Assembly: GCF_023078835.1 (NCBI RefSeq)
Contig: NZ_CP090898.1
Location: forward strand, 558,001 to 622,000
Direction: 5' to 3'
Origin: Synechococcus sp. NB0720_010
GTDB lineage: Bacteria > Cyanobacteriota > Cyanobacteriia > PCC-6307 > Cyanobiaceae
DNA length: 64,000 bases
The position numbers and the translations under genes are program-made. Below are positions 36,291 to 45,470 of the stretch, one piece after another. Positions within the stretch are counted from its first letter, which is position 1. Every line of letters starts with the position of its first letter. The notes under the pieces are model-generated. The model was not told where the DNA came from, made no database searches, and was given only the letters and a program-made list of their open reading frames with translations.

Positions 36291-36881
36291 CTAGTCGTTC
36301 GGAGAAATCTCGATCACCCAGCTTCCGAGATAACCGGACACAGGACTATCTCCAGGGGCCTGACCGAGGGCATTGAACTGGTACATCCCCGCATCGGGGT
36401 TGAAGATCTGCAGGTGCAGACCAATGGTGCCGCCCACCGGAACGGGCCTTTGGGGGAACACCTCAATCGCAGAGCCATAGCCGGTCACCTCCACCGCAGC
36501 AGGAATCACCTCAAGGCAACGGGTCTTTCTGAGGGAGCCACCACGCTCCATCACGCAGAGCTCCACGTTTTCTGGCTTGATTTCAGCGTTGAAATAGTCA
36601 GGCACGGAGACCGCCAACTTGATCAAAGCGGTCTTGCGGTCTTTGGGGCCCAGAACCAGGTAGTAATCGGCACGGCCCGAAGCGCGGCCTGAAGAGGCGT
36701 AGTAATAGAGCTTGCGAAAATCGCTGTTGTTGTCCCAGCGAAACTCAAAGCCGGAGCTGCTCGAACCCTGAGCCAGCGCTGGACGCAGACCCATCGGAGA
36801 ACTGAAGACGCCCAGAGCCGATGCCAGCCCGACGGCACTCCACTTCAGTGCAGACTTCATCCAAGCGAATTTTTTCATCAC
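36291..36881 (-). CDS. DUF2808 secreted protein
   Basis: A 196-residue protein with a signal peptide (two Lys-rich starts, hydrophobic stretch, cleavage near ALAQ at about 38) and a C-terminal domain of the cyanobacterial DUF2808 family: RWDNNSDFRKLYYY, YYLVLGPKDRKTALIKLAVSVPDYF and GSAIEVFPQRPVPVG. Function unknown; members are exported. It is divergent from the SLH porin gene, with a Pho-box-like element between the two. Confidence 0.85.
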   Translation of the reverse strand: MMKKFAWMKSALKWSAVGLASALGVFSSPMGLRPALAQGSSSSGFEFRWDNNSDFRKLYYYASSGRASGRADYYLVLGPKDRKTALIKLAVSVPDYFNAEIKPENVELCVMERGGSLRKTRCLEVIPAAVEVTGYGSAIEVFPQRPVPVGGTIGLHLQIFNPDAGMYQFNALGQAPGDSPVSGYLGSWVIEISPND

Positions 36882-36968
36882 TAGATTTTAGTAGGCAAGA
36901 TCATCAACGCCTGCCAGCACTGCTTTTCAGGAGCCTGAGCGAGATAACAGCACCCAATCTCCAAGCGC

Positions 36969-36986
36969 AATTAAGAACAGGTTAAG
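36969..36986 (-). promoter_or_regulatory. Pho-box-like direct repeat
   Basis: On the minus strand this reads CTTAACC-TGTT-CTTAATT, two 7-base half-sites 11 bases apart. It is close to the CTTAACC direct repeats described for cyanobacterial PhoB/SphR. Orientation points to the DUF2808 gene (start 88 bases away); the porin start is 160 bases on the other side. phoB lies 2 kb to the right. Confidence 0.5.
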
Positions 36987-37145
36987 AGCACCTAAAGAAT
37001 GAGTTATGCCCTATATATCCTCATTCAGCTACATAGTGCTGCAGCACACATAGCGATGAAATGAATCACACAAAGTGGTAGGTTTTTGCTGGTTAGTGTT
37101 TAGCCAGCCCGTTTGGGCTTCTCTCCTCTTTCGGTGTGAGGACCA

Positions 37146-39141: not shown

Positions 39142-39193
39142 TCCCGACAAGAAGGTGTCCTGGGCTACAGGGTCCGGCCGAGAGAATGGGCCC

Positions 39194-39898
39194 ATGACCA
39201 CGCCCTCACCAGCCAGCAACGCCGCGCGTCTGTTGGTGGTCGAAGACGACGACACCATCCGCGAAACCGTCTGCGAAGCGCTGGAGCTCGAGGGCTTTTC
39301 CGTCACCCCAGCCACCAACGGCCAGAGCGCCTGGGATCGGCTGAAACGGGACCCCTTCGAACTGATCGTTCTCGATGTGATGCTCCCTGGCATCAACGGG
39401 CTGGATCTCTGCCGCAAGTTGATTGATCTGCCGCAACGGCCCCTGGTGCTGATGGTGAGCGCCCGGGACACCGAAACCGATCGGGTGCTCGGCCTCGAGC
39501 TCGGGGCCGATGACTACCTGGTGAAACCCTTTGGCATCCGCGAACTCGTGGCCCGCTGCCGGGCGCTCCTGCGCCGCCACCAAGCCAGCGATCAACAGCC
39601 CAGCGAACTCAAAGCGGACAACCTCAGCCTCTTCCCGGCTGAATGCCGCGTCTGCCTCGATGGTCTTGAGCTGAAGCTCTCCCCCAAGGAGTTCAAGTTG
39701 CTCGAGCTCTTCATGCAAAACCCCAAACGCGTCTGGAGCCGCGAGCAACTAATTGAGCAGGTCTGGGGCTTCGACTACATCGGCGACAACAAAACCGTGG
39801 ATGTGCACATCCGTTGGTTGCGCGAAAAGATTGAAGAGGACCCCTCCAACCCGAGCAAACTGGTAACGGTGCGGGGATTCGGCTATCGCTTCGGCTAG
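39194..39898 (+). CDS. phoB: Phosphate response regulator PhoB/SphR (OmpR family)
   Basis: A 234-residue regulator: receiver domain with acidic pair EDDD, phospho-acceptor Asp61 in LIVLDVMLPG and the switch Lys in LVKPF, then an OmpR-type winged helix (LSPKEFKLLELF...RVWSREQLIEQVWG...VDVHIRWLREKIE...GFGYRFG). The ATG at 39194 was chosen because the receiver fold starts right after it; 39155 would add 13 unconserved residues. Assignment to PhoB rests on the adjacent histidine kinase plus the neighbouring ptrA and pstS genes, the order known in marine Synechococcus. It is expected to activate Pho-box promoters when phosphate is low. Confidence 0.9.
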   Translation: MTTPSPASNAARLLVVEDDDTIRETVCEALELEGFSVTPATNGQSAWDRLKRDPFELIVLDVMLPGINGLDLCRKLIDLPQRPLVLMVSARDTETDRVLGLELGADDYLVKPFGIRELVARCRALLRRHQASDQQPSELKADNLSLFPAECRVCLDGLELKLSPKEFKLLELFMQNPKRVWSREQLIEQVWGFDYIGDNKTVDVHIRWLREKIEEDPSNPSKLVTVRGFGYRFG

Positions 39899-39901
39899 GC
39901 G

Positions 39902-41041
39902 ATGACGATGCAGACCGCCCTACAGCTGGCCCTGGGTTTTGGGCTCGGCGCCCTCAGTGTGGGTCTCTGGCGCGAAGGGAATCGCAAAAAGAAGGTCATG
40001 GCCACCCGCCTGCGGCGGCGCCAACCGATCCCTGAACTGCAGTTGCGCGAATGGATCAGCGCCGCACCGCAGGGCTGGCTGGTGCTCGATGCCCAAAACC
40101 GAATCGAGATCATCAATGAGCGGGCTGAGTCCCTCTTGGTCAAAGAGAGTTCGCTCGCTCCCCAGCTCCAACACCTCAATGACCTGGAGCCCAGCGCCGA
40201 GCTGCTGCACCTGCTGGAGCTCAGCCGCAACACCCGCCTGGCCCAACGCGGGGAATGGAGCCTCGGGCGCAATGACCTCTCGGTGCGGGTGATGCCCGGC
40301 GAGAGGGGCTGGCTGGCCCTTCAGATCGACGGCAGCAATCCCCTGAAAAATCAGCTCAAGCAGCAGGAGCAGTGGGTCAGTGATGTGGCCCATGAGCTCA
40401 AAACCCCGATCACGGCCCTGCGGCTGGTCAGTGAGAGCCTGGCCCTCAGGGCCGAGGGCCGCCAGGCGGTCCTGGTGGAGCGACTGGAGAAGGAACTCGA
40501 GCGGTTGCAGCGGTTGGTGGGGGATCTGCTGGATCTCTCCAGACTCGACAACACCCTGGTGAGCCGCCGCAAGCGACCCGCCTGCATCGACCCAAGGGAT
40601 GTCGTTGGCCAGGCCTGGTCCACCCTGCAGGAACTGGCTCAGCCCCGGGGCATTGGCCTCAGCGTTCAGCCGACGCGCGATCAGGCCAGACAGGTGGCCG
40701 TCGATCCGGCTCGCCTGCACCAGGCCCTGTTCAATCTGATCGACAACGCCCTGCGCTACAGCCCCGATGGCAGCAGCATTGAGCTCTCGATCGAGGAGCG
40801 GGACCGCTGGTGTCTGATTGCCGTGCGCGACCAGGGCCCGGGGCTCAGCGAAGAGGACCTCGAGCGGATGTTCGAGCGCTTCTACAGAGGGGATCCAGCC
40901 CGGGCCAGAGGCCCAAGACACGGAAGCGGACTGGGGCTTGCCATCGTTCGCCAGATCGCCCTCAGCCAAGGGGGACTGGTGCGGGCCCGAAACCACCCGG
41001 AGGGAGGAGCGGTGATTGAGCTGCTCCTCCCCAAGGCCTAA
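39902..41041 (+). CDS. phoR: Phosphate sensor histidine kinase PhoR/SphS
   Basis: A 379-residue kinase. N-terminal hydrophobic segment at about 5-23, PAS-like region at about 50-140 (GWLVLDAQNRIEIINERAESLL), dimerisation helix with His164 in SDVAHELKTPITALR, and an HATPase with NLIDNALRYSP (N box), DQGPGLSEEDLERMFERFYRG (G1/F boxes) and GSGLGLAIVRQI (G2). It lacks a periplasmic sensor domain, as typical of PhoR. It lies 3 bases behind phoB, so the pair is one operon. Confidence 0.9.
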   Translation: MTMQTALQLALGFGLGALSVGLWREGNRKKKVMATRLRRRQPIPELQLREWISAAPQGWLVLDAQNRIEIINERAESLLVKESSLAPQLQHLNDLEPSAELLHLLELSRNTRLAQRGEWSLGRNDLSVRVMPGERGWLALQIDGSNPLKNQLKQQEQWVSDVAHELKTPITALRLVSESLALRAEGRQAVLVERLEKELERLQRLVGDLLDLSRLDNTLVSRRKRPACIDPRDVVGQAWSTLQELAQPRGIGLSVQPTRDQARQVAVDPARLHQALFNLIDNALRYSPDGSSIELSIEERDRWCLIAVRDQGPGLSEEDLERMFERFYRGDPARARGPRHGSGLGLAIVRQIALSQGGLVRARNHPEGGAVIELLLPKA

Positions 41042-41044
41042 GCC

Positions 41045-41683
41045 TTAGGCGGCTGCGCTGATCGGCAGGTTGCTAATCACCAGCTGCCGCTGGCTGCTGA
41101 GCTTCAGCCAACCCTCCTCCTTCAGCAGACCCAAGACCCGAGTCACCGTGACGCGGGTGGTGCTCAGGGCACCGGCAATGTCCTGGTGGGTCAGGCGCAG
41201 GTTCAGGCGTAGGCCGTCGTCGCAGGGTTGGCCATACTCTTCCGCCAGCAACTCCAGAAAGCCCCGGACCCGGTCTTCGACGCGGCGCAGACCCAACAGG
41301 GAAATGAGCGCCTCGGACTGACGGGTCCGGCTGATCAGCGCCAGCATCAAGGTGCTGGCCAGGTGGGGGGTCTGCTGGATCTCGTCCATCGAGAGGCAGA
41401 GCAGATCGCAATCGCTCAGCGTCGTGGCTTCGTAGAGATCCAGGTTGCTGAGCGGTTCACCGAAGGGTTCATTCGGTCCCGCCAGGCCCAGGAGAACATC
41501 TTCGCCCTGCTCATTCATCGAGCTCAGCTTGACCATCCCGCGGGCCACCAGCCAGACGTGGTGGCGAAGCATGGGCACGCGACTGCCAGCCGTCAGGCTG
41601 ACCAGATCGCGGCGCTGGAAGGTGTGTTCGAGGCTGCCGCGAAGACTTAAGGGCGGACTCGATGTCAAAGATATGGACGTCAT
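41045..41683 (-). CDS. ptrA: CRP-family regulator PtrA
   Basis: A 212-residue CRP/FNR-type protein: cupin-like effector domain (1-130) and a C-terminal helix-turn-helix (LTHQDIAGALSTTRVTVTRVLGLLKEEG). The cAMP-binding cassette residues are not obvious. In marine Synechococcus PtrA sits beside phoBR and pstS and relays the phosphate-stress response to later genes; that synteny plus the family gives this name. It is convergent with phoR (3-base gap) and downstream of pstS on the same strand, with a terminator between. Confidence 0.85.
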   Translation of the reverse strand: MTSISLTSSPPLSLRGSLEHTFQRRDLVSLTAGSRVPMLRHHVWLVARGMVKLSSMNEQGEDVLLGLAGPNEPFGEPLSNLDLYEATTLSDCDLLCLSMDEIQQTPHLASTLMLALISRTRQSEALISLLGLRRVEDRVRGFLELLAEEYGQPCDDGLRLNLRLTHQDIAGALSTTRVTVTRVLGLLKEEGWLKLSSQRQLVISNLPISAAA

Positions 41684-41784: not shown

Positions 41785-42765
41785 CTAACGAGAGATTTTG
41801 TTCACTGCAGCACGTGCCTTATTCAAGATTGAACCATTCAGAGGGACGAAGCCAAGGGCATCAGCCCTGGCCTGAGCCTGATCGCTCAGCATGTAATTGA
41901 AGGTCTTCTTGATGGTGTCGGTGTTGGCACCATTGCCCTTCTGATAAGCCAAAACCCAGGTCAGGGTCGCGATCGGGTAAGCACCCTTGGCGGTGGGGTT
42001 GGGGTTCGAGCCAGCCAGGTTCTGATCGAGCTTGATGCCGTTCAGGGCCTTGGCACCGGAGGTGTGGCTGGGCTTGATGAATTCACCCGACTTGTTCTGC
42101 AGCGCAGCGGCCTTGACAGCACCGCGGATGTACGACTGGTTGACGTAACCGATCGCACCCTGCTTGTTTTTAATCACACCAGCAACACCAGAGTTACCTT
42201 TAGCTCCAATTGAATTTGAGCCCGGCCAGCGGACGGATTTACCAGTCCCGAGCTTCCACTGTGGAGAAAAAGAAGCCAGGGATTCGGTGAAGGCTTTGGT
42301 GGTTCCAGAACCGTCCGAGCGGTGCACCCAGGTGATTGGACCAGCGGCGCAACCCAGGTCCTTCCAGTTGGTGATCTTGCCGATCGCCACTTGGACAGCC
42401 TGCTGCTGGGTGAGCTTCAGGTTGCAGCCGGGCTTGTTGTAACCGAAGGCGATGGTGCCGCCCACCATGGGGATCTGCACCAGACCGCGGGTCACCTTGG
42501 CGATGTCCTTGGCCTTCATCGGATCATCCGATGCACCGAAGTTGACGGTCTGGTCGATGAACGCCTTACGGCCAGAACCTGAGCCAACGGCTTGGTAGTT
42601 GACCTGGGGGCCACCGGCCTTCGCCAGATCAGCGAACCAACGCTGATAGATCTTGGCGGGGAAGGTTGCGCCAGCAGCACTGAGGCGATCTGCGGCGGAG
42701 GCGGACATGCCGGTGCCGACGGCCAGCAGGGAGCCGATCAGGAGGGCCTTCTTCGCGAAGGTCAT
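41785..42765 (-). CDS. pstS: Phosphate-binding protein PstS
   Basis: A 326-residue periplasmic protein, high-affinity phosphate receptor of the Pst ABC transporter. Signal peptide to about residue 26 (SASAAD), then LSAAGATFPAKIYQRWFADL, VNYQAVGSGSGRKAFIDQTVNFGASDDP and VHRSDGSGTTKAFTESL, which hold the phosphate-coordinating residues. The ATG at 42765 starts directly before the KK and hydrophobic core; 42792 would add nine residues. No pstCAB genes follow, so the membrane part is elsewhere; stand-alone pstS copies are common in marine Synechococcus. A Pho box lies 52 bases upstream. Confidence 0.95.
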   Translation of the reverse strand: MTFAKKALLIGSLLAVGTGMSASAADRLSAAGATFPAKIYQRWFADLAKAGGPQVNYQAVGSGSGRKAFIDQTVNFGASDDPMKAKDIAKVTRGLVQIPMVGGTIAFGYNKPGCNLKLTQQQAVQVAIGKITNWKDLGCAAGPITWVHRSDGSGTTKAFTESLASFSPQWKLGTGKSVRWPGSNSIGAKGNSGVAGVIKNKQGAIGYVNQSYIRGAVKAAALQNKSGEFIKPSHTSGAKALNGIKLDQNLAGSNPNPTAKGAYPIATLTWVLAYQKGNGANTDTIKKTFNYMLSDQAQARADALGFVPLNGSILNKARAAVNKISR

Positions 42766-42816
42766 GGATAAAACCTTGTGGTTCCCATCCATCTACGCAA
42801 GTGATGATCCGTCCTG

Positions 42817-42834
42817 CGTTAGGGGCTGGTTAAG
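42817..42834 (-). promoter_or_regulatory. Pho box of pstS
   Basis: On the minus strand CTTAACC-AGCC-CCTAACG, two half-sites 11 bases apart in the orientation of pstS, with about 50 bases to its start. It matches the cyanobacterial PhoB/SphR repeat. Confidence 0.75.
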
Positions 42835-42855
42835 GCCTCGTGAACGTTGCGTGAA

Positions 42856-43152
42856 TCAGCAGCAGGACTGGGCTTTGAGGGGCCTACTGGTCTGCAAACG
42901 CTGAAGCCAATCACTCAATTCGGCCAGGGCCTGAGGGCTCAGGCGGTAGTAGACCCAGCGCCCCTGAACCCGGGACTCCAGCAGGCCCGCCTCGCGCATC
43001 ACCTTGAGGTGAAAGGAGAGCTTGGACTGGGCCAGGCCCATCTGCTCGGTCAGCTCACAGACGCAGCGCTCACCCCCCGCCAGCGCCAGGGCCACCTCCA
43101 GGCGATGGGGATCCGCCAGGGCCTTGAACAACGCGCTGAGGGCTTTGGACAC
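42856..43152 (-). CDS. arsR: ArsR/SmtB-family arsenic-responsive repressor
   Basis: A winged-helix repressor of about 98 residues from GTG at 43152 (110 from a TTG at 43185). Core: FKALADPHRLEVALAL, ERCVCELTEQMGLAQSKLSFHLKVMREAGLL, VQGRWVYYRL. The CVC pair in ELCVCDL-type position is the arsenite-binding site of classical ArsR, and a CC pair ends the protein. It is divergent from gap-arsJ, whose promoter carries two ArsR-type operators. The shorter start leaves the Pho box and operators outside the coding region. Expected to release DNA on binding As(III). Confidence 0.9.
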   Translation of the reverse strand: MSKALSALFKALADPHRLEVALALAGGERCVCELTEQMGLAQSKLSFHLKVMREAGLLESRVQGRWVYYRLSPQALAELSDWLQRLQTSRPLKAQSCC

Positions 43153-43165
43153 AGCTCGGAGCAGG

Positions 43166-43183
43166 CCTAACCGCACCTTAACC
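43166..43183 (+). promoter_or_regulatory. Pho box upstream of gap-arsJ
   Basis: CCTAACC-GCAC-CTTAACC on the plus strand: two half-sites 11 bases apart, the best match in the window to the CTTAACC direct repeat. It lies 54 bases upstream of the gap ATG and directly beside the first ArsR operator. Confidence 0.7.
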
Positions 43184-43184
43184 A

Positions 43185-43218
43185 ATCAAGAAACCTTGAT
43201 GCATCAAACTTTGTTGAT
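43185..43218. promoter_or_regulatory. Two ArsR operators ATCAA-N6-TTGAT
   Basis: ATCAA-GAAACC-TTGAT at 43185-43200 and ATCAA-ACTTTG-TTGAT at 43203-43218, both exact matches to the inverted pattern reported for the cyanobacterial ArsR of Synechocystis, in tandem 18 bases apart. They fill the space between arsR and gap. Confidence 0.85.
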
Positions 43219-43236
43219 CAGTTGATGGGGTTGGTC

Positions 43237-44250
43237 ATGCGGATTGGCATCAACGGCTTCGGACGCATCGGACGACTGGTCTGCCGCGCCCTCTGGGGAC
43301 GGCCAGGCATTGAGATCGTTCAGATCAACGACAACCAGGCCACGGCTGAATCAGCCGCCCACCTGCTCTGCTTTGACTCAGTCCATGGTCGCTGGGATCG
43401 CCAGGCCGAGGCCCTCAGCGAGAGCGAGCTGCTGATCGATGGGCGGCGCCTGAACTTCAGCCGCAACGGCACCCCCGCCGAGGTGACCTGGTCTGCCGCA
43501 GGTGTGGAGATGGTGCTCGAGTGCAGTGGCCGCTTCAAGACCACCGAGGCCCTCGAGCCCTACTTCAGCCAAGGCGGCATCCAGCGCGTGGTCGTGGGCT
43601 GCCCCGTCAAAGACGCACTGAACATCGTCTACGGGATCAACCATGACCTCTATGACCCCAACCAGCACCGGCTGGTGACCGCGGCGTCCTGCACCACCAA
43701 CTGCCTGGCCCCGATCGTGAAGGTCGTGCATGAGCAGTTCGGCATCCGCCATGGCTCGATCACGACCCTGCATGACGTCACCAACACCCAGGTGGTGGTC
43801 GACGCCTTCAAAAGCGACCTGCGGCGCTCCCGCTCCTGCCTGCAATCGCTGATCCCCACCACCACCGGATCAGCCAAGGCCATCGCCATGATCTTCCCGG
43901 AGCTCGAGGGCAAGCTCAACGGCCATGCCGTTCGTATCCCCCTGCTGAATGCCTCCTTGACCGATGCGGTCTTTGAGCTCGAGCGACCCACCAGCGCAGA
44001 GGCAGTCAACCAGGCCTTCCAGCAGGCTGCGCAGGGGCCCCTCCAGGGAATCCTGGGCTACGAAACCCGGCCGCTGGTCTCCATCGACTACGTCAACGAC
44101 AACCGCAGCGTGGTCATCGATGCCCTCTCAACGATGGTGGTCGACGGGACCCAGCTGAAGGTCTACGGCTGGTACGACAACGAGTGGGGCTACAGCTCCC
44201 GCATGGCCGATCTGGTCAGCCATCTCGTCCAGCTGGAGTCCCAAGGATGA
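43237..44250 (+). CDS. gap: Glyceraldehyde-3-phosphate dehydrogenase linked to arsenate detoxification
   Basis: A 337-residue GAPDH. NAD(P)-binding [14 protein letters not shown], catalytic Cys152 in [12 protein letters not shown] and [14 protein letters not shown] near the end. The ATG at 43237 is preceded by a GGGG ribosome site; earlier in-frame TTG and ATG at 43222 and 43225 would overlap the operator. Directly followed by arsJ with an ATGA overlap. In gap-arsJ pairs this enzyme uses arsenate in place of phosphate to form 1-arseno-3-phosphoglycerate, which ArsJ expels. The operator set in front (Pho box, ArsR sites) supports this special role over the central-carbon enzyme. Confidence 0.92.
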
Positions 44251-45470
44251 GCGGACTCTCCGCCCTACAGCAGTACCAGCGGGTCACCGCCAATTACTGG
44301 GCCTTCACCCTCACCGATGGGGCCCTGCGGATGCTGGTGGTCTTCCACTTCCATCAGCTGGGCTACACCAGCCTGGAGATTGCCTTTCTCTTTCTCTTCT
44401 ATGAGTTCTTTGGGATCCTGACCAACCTCTACGGCGGATGGCTTGGGGCCCGCTTTGGCCTGCGGCTGACGCTTTGGCTCGGCACCTGGATGCAGATCGG
44501 CGCCCTGCTGATGCTGATTCCGGTGGCGGACTCCTGGCCGAAGTGGTGGAGCGTTGCCTACGTCATGGCCGCCCAGGCCCTGAGCGGGATCGCCAAGGAT
44601 CTCAACAAGATGAGCGCCAAAAGCGCGATCAAAACCGTCGTCAAGAGCCATGACGGTGACCAGCAACTCTTCCGCTGGGTGGCGATCCTGACCGGCTCCA
44701 AAAATGCCCTCAAGGGCGTTGGTTTTTTCCTGGGGGGCGTCCTCTTGACCGCCCTGGGCTTTAACGCGTCGGTGGGCGTGATGGCGGCGGGTTTGACCTT
44801 GGCCTTTCTGGTCACCCTGGGGCTGCCGGCCGACATGGGACAGATGAAACGCAAGCCCAAAGTCCACTCCCTGTTCTCCAAAAGCGAGGGCATCAACGTG
44901 CTCTCACTGGCACGGATGTTCCTCTTTGGGGCTCGGGATGTCTGGTTTGTGGTCGCTTTACCGGTCTTCCTGGAGACGACCCTGAACTGGCGCTTCTGGG
45001 AAGTGGGCAGCTTCATGGGCCTCTGGGTGATTGGCTACGGAATCGTTCAGGGATCCGCTCCGGCCCTGCGGCGCAGCTGGGGGCAAACCAGGTCCCCTGG
45101 CGCATCGGCCGTGCAGTTTTGGAGCGCCCTGCTGACGGCGATTCCCGCCTTGATTGCCATTGCCCTATGGCGACAGGTCGCCGATCCAGGTCTGGTGGTG
45201 GTGGCAGGTCTAACCGCCTTCGGGGTGGTCTTTGCGATGAACTCCTCGATTCACAGCTACATGGTTCTCGCCTACAGCGACGGCGAAGCAGTGAGCCTGG
45301 ACGTGGGCTTCTATTACATGGCCAATGCCGCAGGACGGCTGCTTGGCACCCTGCTCTCGGGAGCGATCTTTCTGATCGGCGGGCTCCAGGCCTGTCTCTG
45401 GTGCTCGGCGTTGATGGTGGGACTGGCCTGGCTGTTCAGCCTGAAGCTGCCGCCAGTGCGAAGCGCCTAG
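44247..45470 (+). CDS. arsJ: Organoarsenical efflux permease ArsJ (MFS)
   Basis: A 407-residue major facilitator with about 10-12 membrane segments. The start [49 protein letters not shown] is characteristic of ArsJ, as is the [13 protein letters not shown] loop. It exports 1-arseno-3-phosphoglycerate, which then breaks down to arsenate outside the cell. Start at 44247 overlaps the gap stop by ATGA, so both proteins are made together. It ends 4 bases into a convergent small gene. Confidence 0.9.

Follow-up and report, generated by a model that had tools for sequence, protein, structure and literature searches.

The region upstream of gap-arsJ in Synechococcus sp. NB0720_010 is, on sequence comparison, a real and locally conserved composite element, in which a two-repeat Pho-box-like pair is followed directly by two ArsR operators. 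Dual control of gap-arsJ by the Pho system and by ArsR is probable; comparison of related promoters supports it, short of proof. The reading that we find reasonably likely is a two-input promoter with AND-like logic, in which PhoB (SphR) would activate gap-arsJ from the pair and ArsR would block it downstream.

The composite element and its surroundings

The element lies in the window (the whole stretch of DNA analysed, 64,000 nucleotides, whose coordinates are used throughout), in an island where a SomB-type porin gene, phoB, phoR, ptrA, pstS, arsR, gap and arsJ are found together within 8.3 kb. The features of the island are:

39155 to 39898, plus strand: phoB (sphR), response regulator; best NCBIfam match PhoB TIGR02154, 219.4 bits, below the cut-off of 296.2
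39902 to 41041, plus strand: phoR (sphS), histidine kinase adjoining phoB; best NCBIfam matches PnpS and PhoR, both below cut-off
41045 to 41683, minus strand: ptrA, Crp-family regulator; NCBIfam NF053664, 337.4 bits, cut-off 300
41785 to 42792, minus strand: pstS, phosphate-binding protein (start possibly 42765); NCBIfam TIGR00975, 234 bits, cut-off 205
42816 to 42845, minus strand: pstS Pho box, GTTCACGA-ggc-CTTAACCA-gcc-CCTAACGC; its better pair ranks fourth in the window at a matrix score of 11.91
42856 to 43152, minus strand: arsR, ArsR/SmtB-family repressor, divergent from gap; NCBIfam NF033788 HTH_metalloreg, 101.5 bits, cut-off 55
43166 to 43184, plus strand: two-repeat Pho-box-like element, CCTAACCG-cac-CTTAACCA; matrix score 14.48, rarity in the genome, invariant repeat columns
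43185 to 43200, no strand: ArsR operator 1, ATCAAGAAACCTTGAT, exact ATCAA-N6-TTGAT; arms invariant in the four nearest genomes
43203 to 43218, no strand: ArsR operator 2, ATCAAACTTTGTTGAT, exact ATCAA-N6-TTGAT; starts 18 bp after operator 1
43205 to 43210, plus strand: candidate gap -10, CAAACT, a tentative assignment; 20 nt after the Pho-like element, within operator 2
43237 to 44250, plus strand: gap, ArsJ-associated glyceraldehyde-3-phosphate dehydrogenase; NCBIfam NF033735, 543.8 bits, cut-off 450
44247 to 45470, plus strand: arsJ, organoarsenical efflux permease; NCBIfam NF033734, 587.7 bits, cut-off 400

The intergenic stretch measures 84 bases and is bounded by the GTG with which arsR starts (43152-43150, minus strand) and by the ATG of gap (43237, plus strand). 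The preliminary description had placed here a 53-base composite made of CCTAACC-N4-CTTAACC and two exact ATCAA-N6-TTGAT sites, with a single base between the pair and the first operator; letters, coordinates and spacing (43183 versus 43185) were borne out when checked on the sequence. The repeats CCTAACC (43166-43172) and CTTAACC (43177-43183) are separated by four bases and oriented toward gap, and two bases lie between the operators. From the pair to the arsR start codon the distance is 13 nt, which is also found to the arsR ATG of the relative L002. The arsR product carries a CVC motif (ERCVCEL), so that an As-type ArsR is encoded beside the operators. The gap stop codon is overlapped by the arsJ ATG (ATG/TGA overlap), and the two genes form a GAPDH-ArsJ pair.

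The operator of the cyanobacterial arsBHC ArsR was reportedly described by Lopez-Maury in 2003 as ATCAA-N6-TTGAT in two copies, and it is from this motif that we take the ATCAA-N6-TTGAT of the window to be an ArsR operator. With up to one mismatch the pattern is present seven times in the window versus 0.91 expected, a number reached in none of 100 shuffles, while the exact pattern is found at five places in the whole genome (backward control, three). The three exact matches outside the gap promoter (15518 in the window; 1514187 and 2135708 in the genome) lie inside long open frames and were rejected as operators.

The pair is rare. CYTAACC-N4-CYTAACC with up to one mismatch is found at three places in the 2.41 Mb genome, of which only the gap site matches exactly. 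The pstS Pho box, about 350 bp from the gap site, accounts for one of the two single-mismatch matches. The other single-mismatch match is at 1559099-1559116 (L228). For scoring, a Pho matrix was derived from Table 1 of Su et al. (2007; PMC1906773), which lists 30 cyanobacterial Pho boxes; 25 were used, omitting the rows Ava_3716 (sphX) and alr1094 (sphX/gap3) and three PCC6301 near-copies. The gap site scores 14.48, third of about 128,000 window positions; both higher-scoring positions overlap at a single further box (36968-36997), and next below the gap site comes the pstS box. By matrix rank and genome rarity, the pair thus matches the CTTAACCT-type Pho consensus above background. We rejected the operators alone as the cause of such scores, since simulated operators in random flanks of 60% GC reached 10.5 in 0.13% of 3000 cases.

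The box at 36968-36997 (minus strand), the strongest Pho-box match of the window, scores 19.66 for the pair and 23.55 for three repeats (CTTTAGGT-gct-CTTAACCT-gtt-CTTAATTG). It is located between a 196-aa frame (36291-36881, minus strand), at which it points, and the SomB porin gene (37146, plus strand).

The composite is also preserved locally. In the four nearest genomes (L001 to L004, L001 being that of the window) all 14 repeat columns and all 20 operator-arm columns are invariant, versus 19 of 42 other intergenic columns, two of four in the spacer of the pair and eight of 12 in the operator N6. Fisher's test gave p = 0.0003 for the repeats against the other intergenic columns and p = 0.0004 against these pooled with spacer and N6. 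The four genomes are close relatives, so the footprint counts as one lineage.

Gap promoters across the family

An ArsJ match at E <= 1e-30 was found in 234 of 300 family genomes. From the matches listed we took 110 gap loci in 109 genomes, the window's included; genomes with lower-scoring ArsJ, many of them small, are under-represented in this set. One locus with a truncated gap frame (L061) was left out of the tree and of all counts over 109 promoters. At that locus (G005:C16) the gap frame beside arsJ is only about 32 aa long and arsJ is retained.

A matrix score of at least 12 was obtained upstream of gap in 25 of the 110 loci on the gap strand and in one on the other strand, versus five of 660 random windows; these were taken from those loci, and some may contain promoters. 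Pairs were then called at a score cut of 10.5 and a position of -95 to -60 before gap; L026 and L092, which score above 10.5 outside this range, were counted as lacking a pair. By this rule 37 of 109 gap promoters, including that of the window, carry a Pho-like pair on the gap strand. An ArsR operator lies 0-2 nt away in 32 of them (hereafter dual promoters): it begins 0 nt past the pair in 6 loci, 1 nt past it in 13 and 2 nt past it in 13. The remaining five have no operator. With up to one mismatch allowed, the operator motif precedes gap in 104 of 109 loci, again with the window's; at least two matches are present in 34 of 110 loci, and the 18-bp spacing recurs in 30 of these 34. Operators alone are found in 72 of 109 promoters, and none has neither element. 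The preliminary description had pointed to other marine Synechococcus as the place to seek the same pairing. Conservation of the pair in relatives holds in part, for the 37 promoters that have it, and fails for the 72 that do not, which include all 14 loci of the genus with code g5. In L013 and L014 Pho-like pairs (13.9 and 11.5) were seen on the opposite strand, about 132-115 bp before gap and facing away from it.

The pair promoters fall into three classes. In class A (six loci including the window) CCTAACC-N4-CTTAACC or CTTAAAG is followed directly by two operators. In class B (26 loci), mostly CTTAACC-N4-CATAA- or CCTAACA, an operator follows after 1-2 nt; members include Cyanobium sp. CZS25K (MAG, L143), Synechococcus sp. 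CS-1332 (L144) and Aphanothece saxicola (MAG, L160). Class D (five loci, all of genus code g34) consists of CTTTAACC (TTTTAACC in one), N3 and TCTAAACA, and the operator is absent. An ArsR match at E <= 1e-6 was found in none of the five class D genomes versus 10 of 10 other genomes searched. In one class D locus (L077) gap adjoins ptrA (NF053664, 306.7 bits, cut-off 300), phoB and a SomB porin gene (282.9 bits, cut-off 100). ArsC-family matches were found in all eight class A and D genomes searched, and SBF/Acr3-superfamily matches in five of the eight. The putative ArsC would make As(III) production possible in all eight.

A quickly built phylogeny of the 109 gap proteins has support by SH-aLRT only, with 40 of 106 inner branches weak; on it the pair label requires at least nine changes, at least four of them forced by well-supported branches, versus a mean of 31 after shuffling. 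Such a low number of changes points to inheritance within clades with repeated gain or loss. The presence of phoB is uninformative as a test of the pair, since it was found in 107 of 109 genomes; of the two others, the pair is absent from G058 and present in G236, whose draft genome is 93% complete. Among the 64 loci with phoB and arsJ on one contig, the pair seemed at first associated with phoB within 25 kb of arsJ (17/22 versus 9/42, p = 3e-5), an association that was dropped because with four independent tree pairs it was not significant.

Two further arrangements were observed in the survey. In the Prochlorococcus-type promoters L162, L164-L169 and L171-L173 a CTTAAAT-N4-CTTAAAT-like pair is located about -97 from gap, upstream of two ArsR operators (one mismatched in some), with pstS some kb downstream. 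We did not retain these pairs, which are marginal against the AT-rich background (P 0.02-0.09 in the 10 loci), nor a further 12 Prochlorococcus loci among the matches listed, with P 0.295-0.85. In G121 (L038, L232) and G099 (L070, L231) there is no arsR in the 3.9 kb upstream of gap; the ArsR match is instead near phoB, at a distance of about 1.8 kb in G121 and 0.9 kb in G099, a further ars-pho linkage.

The pair compared with Pho boxes

The Pho box of Su et al. consists of CTTAACCT-like direct repeats of 8 bp that are joined by 3-bp linkers and precede the gene in sense orientation (PMC1906773). The window pair fits this format, with an 11-bp period. When 39 loci were chosen by one strong 8-mer, the best partner was at +/-11 bp in 28, of 16 offsets tried. 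The best period is 11 in 32 of the 37 pair loci, namely in all 32 dual loci. In class D a period of 10 fits better than 11 in 5/5 loci (14.5-15.2 versus 12.1), which weakens the class D pairs as Pho boxes.

For comparison 30 pstS promoters were fetched and 28 used; L132 and L139, with scores below 9, were left out. A TA exactly 20 nt past the last repeat is present in 20 of the 28 and at 19 nt in four more, and no other TA distance up to 31 nt exceeds six promoters. The pstS box of the window has TAGATG starting 20 nt downstream, and TA is found 20 nt past the pair in all five class D gap promoters. In the 32 dual promoters, the window's included, TA at 20 nt was found in none, and there is no TAnnnT word common to them at one distance. 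All 32 have a weak nAnnnT word at 19 or 20 nt, which in the window is CAAACT at 43205.

The lack of a third repeat sets the gap element apart from described cyanobacterial Pho boxes. Cyanobacterial SphR/PhoB boxes have been described with three or more repeats (PMC1906773, PMC11126600), and in Synechocystis PhoB bound less or no longer once any of the three TTAA cores was altered (PMC11126600). Unlike the Synechocystis box of at least three repeats (PMC1906773), the gap element has two good repeats, combined with ArsR operators. A score above 2 in the upstream slot was obtained in one of 37 gap pair loci versus 15 of 28 pstS loci (-8.7 at the gap site of the window), and in the downstream slot in none of the 37. 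By that feature, as read from sequence, the gap element is not a member of the three-repeat Synechocystis type. It does contain the two repeats that Su et al. quote as the minimum for E. coli PhoB. Caution comes from one study of phage promoters, in which sequence-predicted Pho boxes failed in EMSA and were judged unreliable (PMC10976474).

The missing third repeat lends some weight to the explanation that the repeats belong to a divergent arsR promoter or leader, or to a core promoter in which the class B CATAAA is the -10, with gap-arsJ under ArsR alone. We consider this quite improbable. It would fit the 13 nt between the arsR start codon and the pair, the class B second repeats (CATAA-, near a -10) and the 72 of 109 family promoters that have operators only; it does not readily fit the enrichment of pairs on the gap strand, the presence of the pair in class D, where there is no arsR, or the preference for period 11. 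Moreover, the final bases of several pstS boxes are CATAAC or CCTAAC, near the class B form, and the boxes with CATAAC in the slot of the last repeat have TA 20 nt further on, which argues against the class B CATAAA being a plain -10.

Sites of the OmpR/PhoB family are in general direct repeats near 10-11 bp. The pair could accordingly be bound by another OmpR-family response regulator instead of PhoB, an explanation to which the missing third repeat and the better fit of class D to 10 bp would also conform. It appears highly improbable to us, because the matrix derives exclusively from Pho-regulon genes and, apart from the gap site, ranks the 36968 box and pstS highest in the window, because the genes sit in a phosphate island, and because phoB is present in 107 of 109 genomes. 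Binding of PhoB to the pair is the reading that we prefer.

Control of gap-arsJ and related systems

At low phosphate, PhoB~P (SphR) bound to CCTAACC-N4-CTTAACC in the -35 region would recruit polymerase and activate gap-arsJ, and ArsR on the two operators between the pair and the transcription start would block the promoter until As(III) releases it. From the same operators ArsR would also control the divergent arsR. As the operators separate the activator from the start, ArsR repression would be expected to prevail, and full expression would thus need both low phosphate and arsenic (AND-like). Given the 13 nt that separate the pair from the start of arsR, bound PhoB could in addition reduce transcription of arsR. 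We infer the binding of PhoB and ArsR, the position of the -10 and the sign and logic of control. The preliminary description had proposed activation by PhoB together with derepression through ArsR. Matrix rank, footprint, the pairs in 37/109 promoters, the adjacency in 32/32 and the five pairs without ArsR speak for such a dual input; against it stand the 72/109 promoters that lack the pair and the two repeats in place of three. The adjacency of pair and first operator had been read as direct competition or AND logic, and its retention in relatives could possibly accommodate either.

Direct competition would lead to an OR gate, in which PhoB~P beside operator 1 displaces or outcompetes ArsR and phosphate starvation alone induces gap-arsJ as an anticipatory response. 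We regard this as unlikely. The OR gate agrees with the abutment of pair and operator 1 (0-2 nt in 32/32 loci), with the five relatives that retain the pair without operator or ArsR, and with the increase of gap in phosphate-depleted medium in Nodularia, in an account where added arsenic goes unmentioned in the relevant passages (PMC9846622); PhoB and ArsR could, however, equally bind side by side. In Nodularia, which is outside the family, the log2 changes upon phosphate depletion at days 7 and 14 were 1.57 and 2.41 for the ArsJ-GAPDH gene, 0.29 and 1.20 for ArsJ and -1.21 and -1.14 for arsR (columns assigned from the text), and its authors stated that most arsenate-related genes were unresponsive to phosphate depletion (PMC9846622).

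The proposed AND-like promoter, activated by PhoB and blocked by ArsR, would be a variant of already known kinds of control, and the relatives span operator-only, dual and pair-only forms. The region resembles the arsBHC operator in its two ATCAA-N6-TTGAT copies, its CVC-type ArsR and the As(III)-type inducer to be expected; unlike there, the operators stand before gap-arsJ and arsR and beside a Pho-like element. ArsR is the arsBHC repressor in Synechocystis and responds only to reduced forms (PMC4010505). Arsenate is taken up via phosphate transporters, which are induced under phosphate deprivation, and a review in which cyanobacterial arsR is noted together with genes for PstS, Gap3 and MFS suggested their co-regulation by arsenic (PMC4284471). 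In Agrobacterium tumefaciens 5A, as in the window, ArsR and the Pho system are found in one island; ArsR1 represses phoB1 and pstS1 there, and PhoB is needed for normal aioBA kinetics (PMC7965956, PMC3834237). In strain 5A it is ArsR that acts on Pho genes (PMC7965956, PMC3834237), whereas in our case an ars operon carries a Pho-like site, and the genes and motifs are different.

A parallel in gene content is the Nostocales arsR-sphX-gap-arsJ arrangement, in which gap and arsJ occur with arsR and a phosphate-binding gene (PMC1906773, PMC4284471, PMC3610870, PMC9846622), a Pho box has been predicted before sphX-gap3, and gap is up at low phosphate in Nodularia (PMC1906773, PMC9846622). Su et al. 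predicted this box before sphX-gap3 of PCC 7120 (alr1094) and before sphX of ATCC 29413 (Ava_3716) (PMC1906773). As a difference from the window, an exact ATCAA-N6-TTGAT is found inside both published predictions (PMC1906773, Table 1), and these predictions may therefore partly be ArsR sites; the passages of the paper covered here make no remark on an ArsR operator (PMC1906773). In the open-access literature, at the level of titles and abstract openings among the matches listed, and with subscription journals mostly outside this scope, no Pho box combined with an ArsR operator before gap-arsJ was found.

The relatives appear to keep, lose or trade the two switches independently, which suggests that both phosphate hunger and arsenic inform the defence. 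A broader proposal, which we make tentatively and hold to be possible rather than probable, is that phosphate starvation serves as an advance warning of arsenate: gap-arsJ would have been put repeatedly under Pho control via small changes beside the operator, and one lineage would have become wholly Pho-controlled and dropped ArsR. gap-arsJ would remove an arsenate product, which an As(III)-sensing ArsR would signal only after reduction. A promoter that reads both signals would link arsenate defence to the cause of exposure, and the dual, operator-only and pair-only relatives would offer a ready series for following the shift of an operon between a specific and a predictive signal.
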